Shown: positions 416 through 60,508 of the stretch, piece after piece
Position numbering within the stretch: position 1 is the first letter of the stretch
Layout of the letters: every line of letters starts with the position of its first letter
Assembly: GCF_000975155.1 (NCBI RefSeq)
Contig: NZ_BBRG01000001.1
Location: 62,001 to 126,000, forward strand
Direction: 5' to 3'
Source: Demequina globuliformis
GTDB taxonomy: Bacteria > Actinomycetota > Actinomycetes > Actinomycetales > Demequinaceae
DNA length: 64,000 bases
The notes under the pieces: generated by a model
What the model saw: only the letters and a program-made list of their open reading frames with translations
What the model was told of the DNA's origin: nothing
The model's database searches: none
Program-made: the position numbers and the translations under genes

Positions 416-1039
416 TTATTCGCCGGACGACTTCTTGGCGGCCTTAGCGGCTGCGCGTTCTTCACGCTCGGCCACCGCCGCGGCCTTCGCCGCGTCGCGC
501 GCCTTGCGCTGCTCTTCCTTGGCTTCCGCCTTCTTCTTCAGCGGACCCAGAACGAGCGACATGTTGCGGCCCTCTTGCGAGGGCGCGTTCTCGACGACGC
601 CGTACTCCTGGAGCTCGTCTGCCAGCTTCATCAGCAGGCGGCGGCCCATCTCGGGACGGGACTGCTCGCGACCGCGGAACATGATCGTGACCTTGACCTT
701 GTCGCCGCCCTTAAGGAAGCGGATGACGTGGCCCTTCTTGGTCTCGTAGTCGTGCTCGTCGATCTTGAGACGGAATCGCATCTCTTTGATTTCCGTGTTG
801 GCCTGGTTGCGCCGGGCCTCACGTGCCTTGACAGCCGCCTCGTACTTGAACTTTCCGTAGTCCATGAGCTTGACGACCGGGGGGCGCGAGTTCGGAGCGA
901 CCTCGACAAGGTCAAGCTCAGATTCCTGCGCCAGACGGAGCGCATCCTCGATGCGGACAATGCCGACCTGCTCGCCCTGCGGTCCAACCAAGCGGACCTC
1001 AGGAACGCGGATGCGATCGTTGATGCGGGGCTCGTTGAT
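416..1039 (-). CDS. infC: Translation initiation factor IF-3 (AUC start)
   Basis: IF-3 of about 207 residues. It begins [20 protein letters not shown], the usual actinobacterial start, and continues through the two IF-3 domains to an Ala/Lys/Glu-rich tail typical of actinobacterial IF-3. IF-3 binds the 30S subunit and rejects non-AUG or mispaired starts. The first ATG/GTG/TTG-type codon in frame is a TTG at 991, which would remove the conserved first 16 residues. The frame is closed by TAA at 1052-1054, directly followed by AAGGAG and, six bases later, ATC at 1037-1039. I therefore place the start at ATC. Escherichia coli infC uses AUU for autoregulation, so the same logic is likely here. rpmI and rplT follow. 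Confidence 0.93.
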
Positions 1040-5978: not shown

Positions 5979-6641
5979 TTACGAGCTGAGCGTCTGCACC
6001 CAATTTCGCAGCAACTGCAGCCCCGCCTCGCCTGACTTTTCCGGGTGAAACTGCGTGGCCTTCAACGCGCCGTTCTCGACGGCTGCGACGAACCTGTCTG
6101 ATGCATCGGCCGTACCCGCGTGCGACCACGTCACCAACGGCGCTGCGAAGCGCCCCGTGTCTTCCGTGGTGCCCAGGGGGAACTCGCGCGCGGCGTACGA
6201 GTGCACAAAATAGAAGCGCTCGTTCTCCACGCCTGCGAACAACTCGGACCCCTCTGGCACCTCAACCGGCGCCCAGCCCATATTGGGGACGACGGCGCTG
6301 TGAAGTTTTTCGACCACGCCGGGCCACTGGTCAAGACCATCGGCCTCGCGACCGTGTTCGACTCCGCGCTCAAACATGACTTGGTGACCCACGCAGATAC
6401 CGAGGACCGGCCGCCCACCGGACAGACGGCGACCCACAATCTGGTCGCCCCGGACCCGCTTGAGGCCTTCCATCACGGCCTCGAACGCCCCCACCCCAGG
6501 AACGACGAGCCCGTCAGCGTTCTCCGCGACCACTCGGTCGTCGGTGAGCACGACCCGTGCACCGACGTGCTCGAGCGCGCGAACGGCGGAGCGGACATTG
6601 CCAAATCCATAATCCAAGACAGTTACGAGAGGTTGTGCCAC
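5979..6641 (-). CDS. hisH: Imidazole glycerol phosphate synthase, glutaminase subunit
   Basis: 220 residues. A class I glutamine amidotransferase with the Cys nucleophile in GICVGHQ and the His/Glu pair in FHPEKSG. The oxyanion segment PNMGW and N-terminal [11 protein letters not shown] are typical. It supplies ammonia to HisF, which turns PRFAR into IGP and AICAR. hisF is not in the window. The GTG start (6641) has no ribosome site but is preceded at six bases by TAGGCT, consistent with its own promoter and a leaderless mRNA. It lies between the hypothetical gene at 7444 and priA, separated from both by plus-strand genes. Confidence 0.95.
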
Positions 6642-56681: not shown

Positions 56682-56827
56682 AGGACATAGCCTGCCATGC
56701 GCCCCGTCCGCGCCGTCGCACCCACACGAGCCCAGGCATCGGCCCATTCCTCGGTCCCGCAGGGACCATGACCAACCGCCGGGTAGTCGGATTGGTCACA
56801 GCGCCCCATTTGCGGAAAGATAGCCCC

Positions 56828-58024
56828 GTGCGCGCACTTCTACTTGAGAATCTTCACTCCAAGGCCACCGAGAACTTCGAGGCCGCCGGCATCTCCGTCG
56901 AGAACCACGCTGGCGCGATGGACGAGGACGAGCTCATCGAGGCCCTTCAGGGCGTTGAGATCCTCGGCATCCGTTCCAAGACCCAGCTCACCGAACGGGT
57001 CATGGCGGCCTCGCCCTCGCTGATCGCGGTCGGAGCGTTCTCCATCGGCACCAACCAGATTGACCTCGACGCCGCCGCGCGCCGGGGCATCGCGGCCTTC
57101 AACGCGCCGTACTCCAACACGCGTTCCGTCGTCGAGATGGCGGTGTCGGAGATGATCTCCCTGACGCGCCGCCTCCCGGTTCACCAGAAGCTCATGCACG
57201 AGGGCGTGTGGAACAAGAGCGCTGACGGCGCCCACGAGATTCGTGGCCGCACGCTGGGCATTGTCGGGTACGGCAACATCGGTTCACAGTTGTCCGTGGT
57301 CGCCGAGGCGCTGGGCATGAACGTCATCTTCTTCGACAGCGCTGAGAAGCTCGCTCTGGGCAACGCCACGCGCATGCCGTCGCTCGATGCCCTGCTGCGC
57401 GAGGCAGACATTGTGACCTTGCACGTGGACGGCCGCAGCGGCAACCAGGGCTTCTTTGGCCGCGAGCAGTTCGAATCGATGAAGCATGGTGCGCACTTCC
57501 TCAACCTGTCGCGTGGGTTCATCGTCGACGTTGATGCCCTGCGCGAAGGCCTCGAGTCCGGCGCCATTGGTGGAGCCGCCATCGACGTGTTCCCGGAGGA
57601 GCCCAAGAAGAAGGGCGACCCGTTCCTCACGCCGTTGCAGAACATCCCGAACGTCATTTTGACCCCGCACATTGGCGGATCAACGGAAGAAGCCCAGCGC
57701 GACATCGGCATCTTCGTGTCCACGCGTCTGTGTGACTATGTGACGAAGGGCTCTACGTCCCTCAGCGTCAACCTGCCCAACCTTCAGCTCGACCGCCCGT
57801 CCGGATCGCACCGCATCGCCCACCTGCACGAGAACGTGCCCGGTGTGCTCGCGGCCGTCAACCGAGTGTTCGCCGAGCACGAGGTCAACATCGAAGGCCA
57901 GATGCTCGCGACCCGCGGTGAACTGGGTTACGTGGTGACGGACATTTCCGCCGGCGTGACCGAGGAGTCCGTGGCAGCGTTGGGCGCCATGCCAGGAACC
58001 GTCCGACTGCAGGTGCTCTCATAA
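56828..58024 (+). CDS. serA: D-3-phosphoglycerate dehydrogenase
   Basis: 398 residues. NAD-binding GIVGYGNIGSQLS, catalytic Arg/Glu/His set in NLSRGFIVDVDAL, DVFPEEP and TPHIGGSTEEAQ, and a C-terminal ACT domain (HENVPGVLAAVNRVFAEHEVNIEGQ) for serine feedback. Short form with one ACT domain, as in E. coli, and not the long mycobacterial type. First step of serine synthesis. GTG 56828 is preferred over the upstream ATG 56768 by homology and by GGAAAG upstream. Confidence 0.95.
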   Translation: MRALLLENLHSKATENFEAAGISVENHAGAMDEDELIEALQGVEILGIRSKTQLTERVMAASPSLIAVGAFSIGTNQIDLDAAARRGIAAFNAPYSNTRSVVEMAVSEMISLTRRLPVHQKLMHEGVWNKSADGAHEIRGRTLGIVGYGNIGSQLSVVAEALGMNVIFFDSAEKLALGNATRMPSLDALLREADIVTLHVDGRSGNQGFFGREQFESMKHGAHFLNLSRGFIVDVDALREGLESGAIGGAAIDVFPEEPKKKGDPFLTPLQNIPNVILTPHIGGSTEEAQRDIGIFVSTRLCDYVTKGSTSLSVNLPNLQLDRPSGSHRIAHLHENVPGVLAAVNRVFAEHEVNIEGQMLATRGELGYVVTDISAGVTEESVAALGAMPGTVRLQVLS

Positions 58025-60021
58025 CTGTCCACGACGCCAGCGACCCGATCGCATTCGCAGACCTCGGTCTGCCACCCACCCTTGTCGAAGCTCTCGACAG
58101 GGCGGGGTTGACCACCGCATTCCCGATCCAGTCGGCGACCATCGCCGACGCCCTTGCGGGGCGCGACGTGCTCGGCAAGGCCCGCACAGGCTCAGGCAAG
58201 ACCCTTGGCTTTGGCCTCCCAGCCATCGCTCGCCTGGCCGACGGAGACAAGCCTGCGCCCACGAAGCCGCGCGCGATCGTGTTGGTTCCCACGCGCGAGC
58301 TTGCGATGCAGGTCAACGACGCGCTCGAACCGTTCGCCCACTCGATGGGGGTATCGCTACGCCTGGTGGCAGGCGGCCTGTCCATGACCAAGCAGGTGCA
58401 GGCGCTCGAACGCGGAGTCCACCTCCTTGTCGCGACTCCCGGACGCCTTGCCGATCTGACGCGCCGCGGACACGCGGATATGTCAGACGTGGAACTCATT
58501 GTGCTCGATGAGGCGGACCACATGGCTGACATGGGGTTCATGGACGAGATCAATGAGATCCTCGAACACGTGCCCGCTGGCGGACAACGCCTGCTGTTCT
58601 CCGCCACCCTTGACGGCGACGTCGACCGCCTCGTGGCGGAACACATGGTTGACCCTGTCCTCCATGACGTCACGGGCGGAGACGATGGTCCCGCCAGCAT
58701 GACCCACCTGGTGCTGAGCATCCCGCCACACGTGAAGTACCAGCTCGCGCACCGGATCGTCGCGCGCGAAGGCCGCACCATCGTGTTTGTGCGCTCGAAG
58801 TTGGCCTGCGACCGTATCGCGGGCGAGATGCGAGACGCGGGTGTGCTCGCAGTGTCCCTGCACGGCGACAAGTCGCAGGCAGAGCGCAATCACGCCATTA
58901 CGGGTTTCCGGGCAGGGCAGATTCCTGTGCTGGTCGCCACCGACGTTGCCGCGCGCGGTATCCACGTCGACGCCGTTGACCTGGTGCTGCAAATGGACCC
59001 GCCGTCCGATTTCAAGGACTACACGCACCGTGCCGGGCGCACCGCGAGGGCGGGCAGCGCCGGCATTGTGGTGACTCTGTCACTTCCCCACCAGCGCAAG
59101 ACCGTTGACCGCCTCATCGACAACGCCGGCGTGGACGCGATCTTCCGCAAGGTACGCGGGGAAGATCAGGAATCGCTCGCGCTGCTCAGCGAGCTCACAG
59201 GCGCACGCGAGCCCTCAGGAGTACCGGTCCCCGAGCCCCTGCCAGACAGCGCCCTGCGTGGACGCGGCGGACGCGGACGGCCCGACCGTGGGGGTCGCGG
59301 CCGCACCGACAGGAACGGTCGTGAGCGTCCAGCGCGCACCGACTACGGTGCGCGAGCTGACCGCACCCGACGTCCTGCCCGGGGCCGCGATGACTTCGCC
59401 GATGAGTCGCGCACCGCCCGCGAGAATGCTCTCCTGGCACGCGAGGAGCGCCTCGCGCGACGCGAAGCCGAACTCGAGGCACGCGAACGCGACGTCGCGC
59501 AGCGTGGCCGCTCGCGGGACTACGAGACTGGGCCCGCGAGACGCGGCGGTAGCCGTGATCGCAGCCCCGAACGCGCGACCGGCCGTACTCGCGGAGATGA
59601 CGACAACCGTCGTGGGTCCAAGCCAGAGGCGCGGCGCCAGGCGCGTGGTGACGGCGACACCCGGCGCCCACCCAGGACGGAGACTCGACGGGACTCGCGC
59701 TTCGACGACCGTCGAGACAGTCGCGGAGGCTCAGACAGTCGCGGAGCCTCAGACAGTCGCAGAGGCTCAGGCCGCTCGCGCGATGCACAGGCGCCCGCAA
59801 ACGACGGCCGCCGCCGTCCCTCGAGCCGCCAGCGCCCACAGGATGATGCTCCGTCCACCGCGCGCGATCGTGGCCAGGCACGGCCCGAGGGTCAGGCGTT
59901 CGAATCCAAGAAGGGCGCGTCACACGGCAAGAAGAAGTCTGCCGCGAAGCAATCGGGCCGTTCGGGCAAGGCCCGGCCCAAGAACAAGGGGCAGGGCAAG
60001 GGCAAGCGCTCCAAGCGCTAA
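58021..60021 (+). CDS. DEAD-box RNA helicase, apparent AUA start
   Basis: About 666 residues. Q-motif region FADLGLPPTLVEALDRAGLTTAFPIQ, Walker A ARTGSGKT (about 55), PTRELAMQV, VLDEADHMADMGF, SATLDGD, ATDVAARGIHVD and HRAGRTARAG. The C-terminal ~250 residues are Arg/Gly/Asp-rich with RDSRGGSDSRGASDSRRG repeats and a Lys-rich end. The first ATG/GTG/TTG in frame (TTG 58108) would delete the Q-motif phenylalanine region. The frame is open upstream to a TGA at 57919 with no normal start. ATA 58021 has AGGTG five bases upstream and overlaps the serA stop. Confidence 0.88.
   Translation: MTVHDASDPIAFADLGLPPTLVEALDRAGLTTAFPIQSATIADALAGRDVLGKARTGSGKTLGFGLPAIARLADGDKPAPTKPRAIVLVPTRELAMQVNDALEPFAHSMGVSLRLVAGGLSMTKQVQALERGVHLLVATPGRLADLTRRGHADMSDVELIVLDEADHMADMGFMDEINEILEHVPAGGQRLLFSATLDGDVDRLVAEHMVDPVLHDVTGGDDGPASMTHLVLSIPPHVKYQLAHRIVAREGRTIVFVRSKLACDRIAGEMRDAGVLAVSLHGDKSQAERNHAITGFRAGQIPVLVATDVAARGIHVDAVDLVLQMDPPSDFKDYTHRAGRTARAGSAGIVVTLSLPHQRKTVDRLIDNAGVDAIFRKVRGEDQESLALLSELTGAREPSGVPVPEPLPDSALRGRGGRGRPDRGGRGRTDRNGRERPARTDYGARADRTRRPARGRDDFADESRTARENALLAREERLARREAELEARERDVAQRGRSRDYETGPARRGGSRDRSPERATGRTRGDDDNRRGSKPEARRQARGDGDTRRPPRTETRRDSRFDDRRDSRGGSDSRGASDSRRGSGRSRDAQAPANDGRRRPSSRQRPQDDAPSTARDRGQARPEGQAFESKKGASHGKKKSAAKQSGRSGKARPKNKGQGKGKRSKR
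59716..59769 (+). repeat. Three 18-base tandem repeats in the helicase C-terminus
   Basis: GACAGTCGCGGAGGCTCA with two near-identical copies, coding for DSRG-type six-residue units. An in-frame, length-variable RGG/RS-like tail is the likely result. Confidence 0.85.
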
Positions 60022-60058: not shown

Positions 60059-60508
60059 TTACTGCTGACCCGTCCGGAGGTCCGTGATGGCCGCGTCGAA
60101 GTCGTCGAGGTTCTGGAAGTCCTGGTACACGCTCGCGAACCGTAGGTATGCCACCTCATCGAGTTCGCGCAGCGGCGGCAGAATCGCCAGCCCAATGTCG
60201 GTTGCCTTAATCTCCGCTGCCCCAGAGGCGCGGATCGATTCCTCGACCTTGTGTGCCAGCACTGCGAGGTCGTCGTCGCTGACGGGGCGGCCCTGGCATG
60301 CCTTGCGTACACCCCCCACGACCTTCTCGCGACTAAACGGCTCCCCCACGCCATTGCGCTTCATCACCATGAGGCTTGCGGTCTCAATCGTCGAGAAGCG
60401 CTTGCCACACTCAGGGCACTCTCGGCGCCGCCGAATCGCAAGACCGTCATCGGACGTGCGTGAGTCAATGACTCGGGAGTCGGCATTCTTGCAGAAAGGA
60501 CAGTGCAT
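60059..60508 (-). CDS. nrdR: Transcriptional repressor NrdR
   Basis: 149 residues. N-terminal zinc ribbon [17 protein letters not shown] then [15 protein letters not shown], followed by an ATP-cone domain ([29 protein letters not shown]). NrdR represses ribonucleotide reductase genes in response to ATP/dATP. It sits near lexA and the LysM gene, an order shared by many Actinobacteria. No NrdR box is obvious in its own upstream region. Confidence 0.97.

Follow-up and report, generated by a model that had tools for sequence, protein, structure and literature searches.

How is translation of a DEAD-box RNA helicase started when its reading frame holds no ATG, GTG or TTG ahead of its Q-motif? The question is raised by a locus of Demequina globuliformis (source genome of 2.62 Mb) that lies in a stretch of 64,000 nucleotides with 66% G+C, called the window here. 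Its forward strand carries serA, encoding phosphoglycerate dehydrogenase (56768..58024; the open reading frame was read directly and its product matches NCBIfam PRK11790 with 596 bits against a cut-off of 404), which is listed from the ATG at 56768, with the GTG at 56828 as another possible start. The helicase frame on the same strand is bounded by a stop at 57919-57921 on its upstream side and ends at 60021, and a scan of this frame places its first canonical start codon, a TTG, at 58108..58110. Direct reading confirmed two claims made earlier from the sequence alone, namely that ATG, GTG and TTG are absent between the upstream stop and this TTG, and that serA ends in ATAA, where the stop TAA (58022-58024) shares bases with an ATA at 58021..58023 (+), the inferred helicase start codon. 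The ATA is preceded by the moderate Shine-Dalgarno-like stretch AGGTG (58011..58015, +) and the five bases CTCTC, and it would open a helicase of 666 codons (58021..60021, +) with a long Arg-rich tail. The predicted N-terminus of the AUA-started protein is MTVHDASDPIAFADLGLPPTLVEALDR, with Met rather than Ile at position 1, or with this Met removed. The segment that we take to be the Q-motif (58054..58131, +, delimited by alignment and by solved chains) runs, counted from the ATA, from a Phe at codon 12 (58054-58056) to a Gln at codon 37 (58129-58131); its Phe precedes the TTG, which is residue 30, as the sequence-only reading had pointed out. Further 3' of the helicase, the list of open reading frames contains a frame at 60059-60508 that is presumably NrdR-like.

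The translation contains the Q motif with its upstream Phe, ARTGSGKT, DEAD, SAT and HRAGRTAR, all of them read directly, and by the motif set that defines the class it is a DEAD-box protein. These motifs are largely invariant in a 10-row alignment (A1), in which the Phe and the Gln of the Q-motif do not vary at all. Pfam DEAD and Helicase_C both score above their cut-offs; among the best 25 of 30 NCBIfam families compared none reaches its cut-off, the top one being CshA with 302 of 646 bits. Of the best 60 of 104 matched solved chains, the alignment begins at helicase residue 11 or 12 in 50 and no later than residue 16 in 58; since these chains cover residues ahead of residue 30, a start at TTG 58108 would delete a stretch that is present in known structures.

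The junction was compared across 44 genomes of the genus, the source genome included, some of which are near-copies of one another. Thirty-six harbor the serA-helicase pair, with orthologue identities of 67-100%, and the other eight (G004, G008, G017, G020, G026, G028, G040 and G043) gave matches at the level of paralogues only. All 36 junctions were read, and at the overlap they show ATA (30 genomes), CTG (four), ATG (one) or CTA (one). In the genome with CTA (G027) serA ends 12 nt earlier and the ATA is kept at the same helicase position, 34 codons ahead of PIQ as in 22 others, with AGGTG-N5-ATA retained, which brings the conservation of ATA at the start position to 31/36 (30 in the overlap plus the displaced one). 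If ATA, CTG and ATG are counted as starts, a -4 overlap with the downstream frame at -1 is found in 35/36, G027 being displaced by 12 nt, and the frame of the helicase relative to the serA stop is identical in 36/36. The N-terminal lengths to PIQ (29, 30, 31, 33, 34 and 35 codons) keep the frame and contain no stops. The canonical overlap codon of a termination-reinitiation pair (ATG, or else GTG or TTG) was seen in G012 only (ATGA, 1/36). The middle T of the overlap codon is constant because the serA stop forces it, so it provides no evidence for an ATA start. In a clade of four species (loci L035, L036, L038 and L074) serA ends in CTGA, which places CUG at the start position of the helicase.

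Other places for a start are scarce. Between the upstream stop and the Phe of the Q-motif a canonical start is absent in 23/36 orthologues, and up to the Gln it is absent in 11/36 (two scans combined); 19/36 likewise lack any other near-cognate codon between the overlap and the Phe. In five of the 36 a canonical codon does lie in the interval from the overlap to the Phe; one of these is G012, where the overlap already reads ATG. In another eight the canonical codons lie at least 271 codons upstream, in the -1 frame, either within serA or ahead of it, and we judge them implausible as helicase starts. On the other side, the first canonical codon 3' of the overlap comes after the Phe in 31/36 and after PIQ in 16/36. 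A start at such a downstream codon, as at TTG 58108 or its equivalents, would yield a product without the Phe and the helix of the Q-motif. The codon five ahead of PIQ could serve for this in a few species, being ATG in 6/36 and TTG in 1/36, but no canonical codon stands there in the other 29, and in the 16 orthologues just mentioned the next one lies past PIQ altogether. The skipped stretch is moreover conserved as protein and is present in 58 of the best 60 solved chains (104 matched), which makes this alternative, including the TTG proposed by the earlier reading and present at that codon in one orthologue of 36, very unlikely.

The conservation of the stretch is seen in its nucleotide differences, which were counted in the 23 of the 36 orthologues with equal N-terminal length. 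From the Phe to just before TTG 58108 the pairwise differences are 0.21, 0.19 and 0.49 at codon positions 1, 2 and 3, a pattern of coding constraint and thus the mark of a translated stretch. In the ten codons directly after the ATA the values are 0.49, 0.40 and 0.37 and the codon-position bias is absent, which counts against a start at ATA; the frame-keeping length changes and the lack of stops are therefore the only evidence of translation that these ten codons provide. With this reservation, a start at or adjoining the serA stop is supported by comparison together with the conservation of ATA, and the AUA codon at 58021-58023, overlapping that stop, is by the same comparison well supported as the putative start of the helicase, in agreement with the earlier reading.

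That reading also derived the junction from ATGA by a single base change; a rival reading is a sequencing error or a recent mutation of an ATGA junction in the source genome. ATGA does occur in a relative (G012), but 29 other genomes share ATA at the overlap and one more keeps a displaced ATA. In the tree the sister group of G012 consists of four ATA genomes (100/99), the four CTG genomes form one clade (100/99) that adjoins an ATA genome, and all other deep forks are ATA, many of them unresolved, so that CTG arose once and ATGA once; two of the helicases are partial (G033, G039) and two genomes stand on long branches (G011, G037). ATA looks the simplest state for the genus, and the ATGA of G012 looks derived. 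The comparison with relatives that had been proposed as a check (ATA predominant with 30/36, ATGA in 1/36) lends no support to an origin from ATGA in the source genome; the relatives refute the idea of an error or a fresh mutation, to which we give next to no probability. The same arrangement in most relatives that have the pair suggests that the start is throttled on purpose and is no error.

The end of serA itself differs where the helicase follows. Its last codon is TCA in 31/36 genomes with the helicase and in 0/9 of those read without it (Fisher p 2e-6; the Fisher and binomial values ignore kinship), and TCA is rare elsewhere, with 28 of 838 internal serA Ser codons and 8% of the Ser codons in 464 kb of the source genome. 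The nine helicase-less ends come from seven of the eight genus genomes without the pair (G040 gave none) and from G044 and G046 of the family (G045 was left out), and they read TCC TGA in four, TCC TAG in four and TCG TAA in one. As TCC TGA ends serA also where no helicase follows, the CTG of the four-species clade may be tolerated rather than selected. These endings also bear on a SerA-helicase fusion made by a -1 frameshift at the end of serA, in favor of which stands the frame relation constant in 36/36. The 36 junctions, inspected by eye, end serA in TCA TAR, TCC TGA, TCA TGA or TCC TAG without a shared slippery run, TCA is absent in the nine helicase-less ends, and reading the overlap codon as a start explains ATA, CTG, ATG and the displaced ATA alike; we regard a fusion product as very unlikely. 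Another reading takes CATAR as kept for a different reason, for instance as a -10 promoter element from which a leaderless helicase mRNA would be made. TAGCCT in G030 and G001 fits TANNNT, the consensus of the -10 element; the sixth base varies in others, however (TAACTG, TAACCG, TAAACA), and no conserved canonical start lies just downstream, and we regard this reading as more doubtful still than the fusion.

How ribosomes would reach the AUA depends in part on the stretch ahead of it. The AGGTG, which lies five bases before the ATA and had been described as being at good distance, is only moderate in strength. For the predicted Shine-Dalgarno pairing the mean of the 36 orthologues is -6.6 kcal/mol vs -4.6 kcal/mol in control stretches, 24% of which reach the former value; the window genome (G000) scores -9.6 kcal/mol, and pairing is poor in several species (-2.5 kcal/mol in G007). 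No special RNA structure was found at the junction, where 61-nt folds average -19.0 kcal/mol vs -19.8 kcal/mol in controls. The AUA could be used by free 30S subunits recruited through AGGTG or GGGTG, with serA translation only opening the site and no true re-initiation. This would agree with G027, where AGGTG-N5-ATA is kept although the serA stop lies 12 nt earlier, and with the third-base entropy of the last five serA codons (0.58-0.98 vs 1.18 as the average of 36 conserved codons), even if some inner codons are as low; against it stand the pairing, which is no more than moderate on the whole and weak in a number of species, and the overlap of start and stop codon in 35/36. We consider such entry of free subunits possible, with clearly less than even chances.

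The explanation that we favor as a whole, and regard as probable, is that of an AUA start reached by termination-reinitiation from serA, with a low, IF3-sensitive output whose weakness is selected; the re-initiation, the low output, the control by IF3 and the selection for weakness are what we infer from the sequences compared. Ribosomes finishing serA at UAA or UAG would move back a single base and, with initiator tRNA, start anew at the AUA that overlaps the stop, assisted by the moderate Shine-Dalgarno-like AGGUG or GGGUG inside serA; AUA being poor and disfavored by IF3, the helicase level would be low, tied to the translation of serA and probably sensitive to IF3.

Both elements of the favored explanation have precedents. 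AUA is among the rare bacterial starts listed in PMC9094748, and according to PMC13009471 it opens the Staphylococcus aureus genes infC, ccpN and citZ, where reporters gave about 10% of AUG (ccpN up to 30% in rich medium), the non-canonical start of ccpN is strongly conserved and attenuation is due to inefficient P-site decoding modulated by IF3. The helicase resembles these genes in that AUA opens a chromosomal bacterial gene, and differs from them in the -4 stop/start overlap, in the 66% G+C of the window and in coding for a DEAD-box helicase; furthermore, infC, cvfC1 and ccpN have extended Shine-Dalgarno motifs there (PMC13009471) whereas those of the helicase are moderate to weak, and with a mean of -6.6 kcal/mol the 36 orthologues do not on average show a strong or extended motif of this kind. 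Termination-reinitiation at ATGA or TGATG pairs is described in PMC6728339 as widespread, and in many such pairs the first gene itself contains a Shine-Dalgarno stretch; the serA-helicase pair shares the same-strand stop/start overlap and has a Shine-Dalgarno-like stretch within serA, but its start would be AUA (CUG in one clade) and not AUG, and its coupling is a proposal. A result that counts against re-initiation at AUA comes from a phage GA coat-lysis reporter in E. coli, in which, according to PMC9955659, AUAA in place of AUGA failed as a start; the AUAA vs AUGA junction is the same, but the host was E. coli and the reporter had no Shine-Dalgarno sequence. In vitro, weak or mismatched third-base pairs together with IF3 gave very low yields, the AUA/CAU pair not being among those in the available part of PMC10158994. 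No earlier report of a genus-wide AUA start inside a stop/start overlap was found in the open-licence papers searched: AUA starts are known and stop/start overlaps are known, and the two combined and kept across a genus are apparently unreported.

Selection for a weak start is suggested by the substitutions available. A single transition turning TAA or TAG into TGA would produce AUGA and still terminate serA, and ATGA is found once in 36; TGA is not a rare stop either, closing 150 of 383 called genes in 464 kb. The weak AUA thus seems to be kept by selection, since the one-step change to AUGA is at hand and was seen in a single genome. On the more specific proposal, that in this genus a weak AUA is retained on purpose as a re-initiation codon within the stop, against the one-step change to AUG, that the helicase would be low, coupled to serA and sensed through IF3, and that post-termination ribosomes accept AUA where those of the E. 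coli reporter did not, we find the chances evenly balanced. The natural variants (ATA, CTG, ATG, displaced ATA and serA without helicase) allow selection for a weak start to be tested, and they bear on whether re-initiating ribosomes read AUA where the E. coli ones did not.

A second gene of the window is relevant to the role of IF3. The infC gene, encoding IF3 itself (416..1039, minus strand), has no canonical start in the short open frame ahead of its conserved N-terminus and starts from AUC at 1037-1039 with AAAGGAG upstream; this is the second non-canonical start in the window, and of the expected kind. Relatives have ATC at the same place in 20/20 loci read, with AAGGAG or GAGGAG, and this conservation of an ATC start with a strong Shine-Dalgarno plausibly implies IF3-type discrimination of ATN starts in the genus. 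In E. coli infC starts at AUU, and a study of Sacerdot from 1996 is reportedly connected with its non-AUG start. Like infC, the helicase would have a conserved near-cognate ATN start; unlike it, it lacks the strong AAGGAG or GAGGAG, its start would overlap a stop codon and it does not code for an initiation factor. AUA starts are easily missed because gene callers normally accept ATG, GTG and TTG alone, and calling from these codons strips the Phe of the Q-motif in the window and in the majority of the relatives (first canonical codon after the Phe in 31/36).

Overlaps of the -4 type are ordinary in this DNA, as the window contains six with ATGA or GTGA. No widespread use of ATA overlaps was seen in the genome: when genes were called crudely in 464 kb of it, ATG, GTG and TTG made up 51 of 77 comparable junctions and ATA three, of which the first is followed by a canonical start after two codons, the second has such a start nine codons upstream and the third is the serA-helicase junction, the only one without another canonical start close by. 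A separate -4 overlap reading CTGA (L240) was seen near 6423 on the minus strand, where the first canonical start of the downstream frame lies 29 codons beyond the overlap and would open a product of 579 aa; a CUG start is possible there.

The origin of the junction was sought in 35 orthologues from other families, of which 33 were readable (L109 and L114 had no pattern match). The end of serA was near the helicase core in 0/33 of the readable loci; serA, searched for at E <= 1e-60 in the 35 genomes, was found in 18 and not in 17, and in 18/18 it stood at a distance from the helicase or on a different contig. These outgroup loci provide no junction by which ATGA and ATAA could be polarized. 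In these other families (L082-L108, L110-L113, L115 and L116) the helicases mostly have canonical starts available in long open frames, and their N-termini may be longer. Seven genomes of the genus without the helicase behind serA (L198-L203 and L205) have the presumed NrdR-like frame next, on the opposite strand, in 7/7, and as this frame follows serA or the helicase alike, the helicase must have either entered or disappeared from the place between serA and nrdR.
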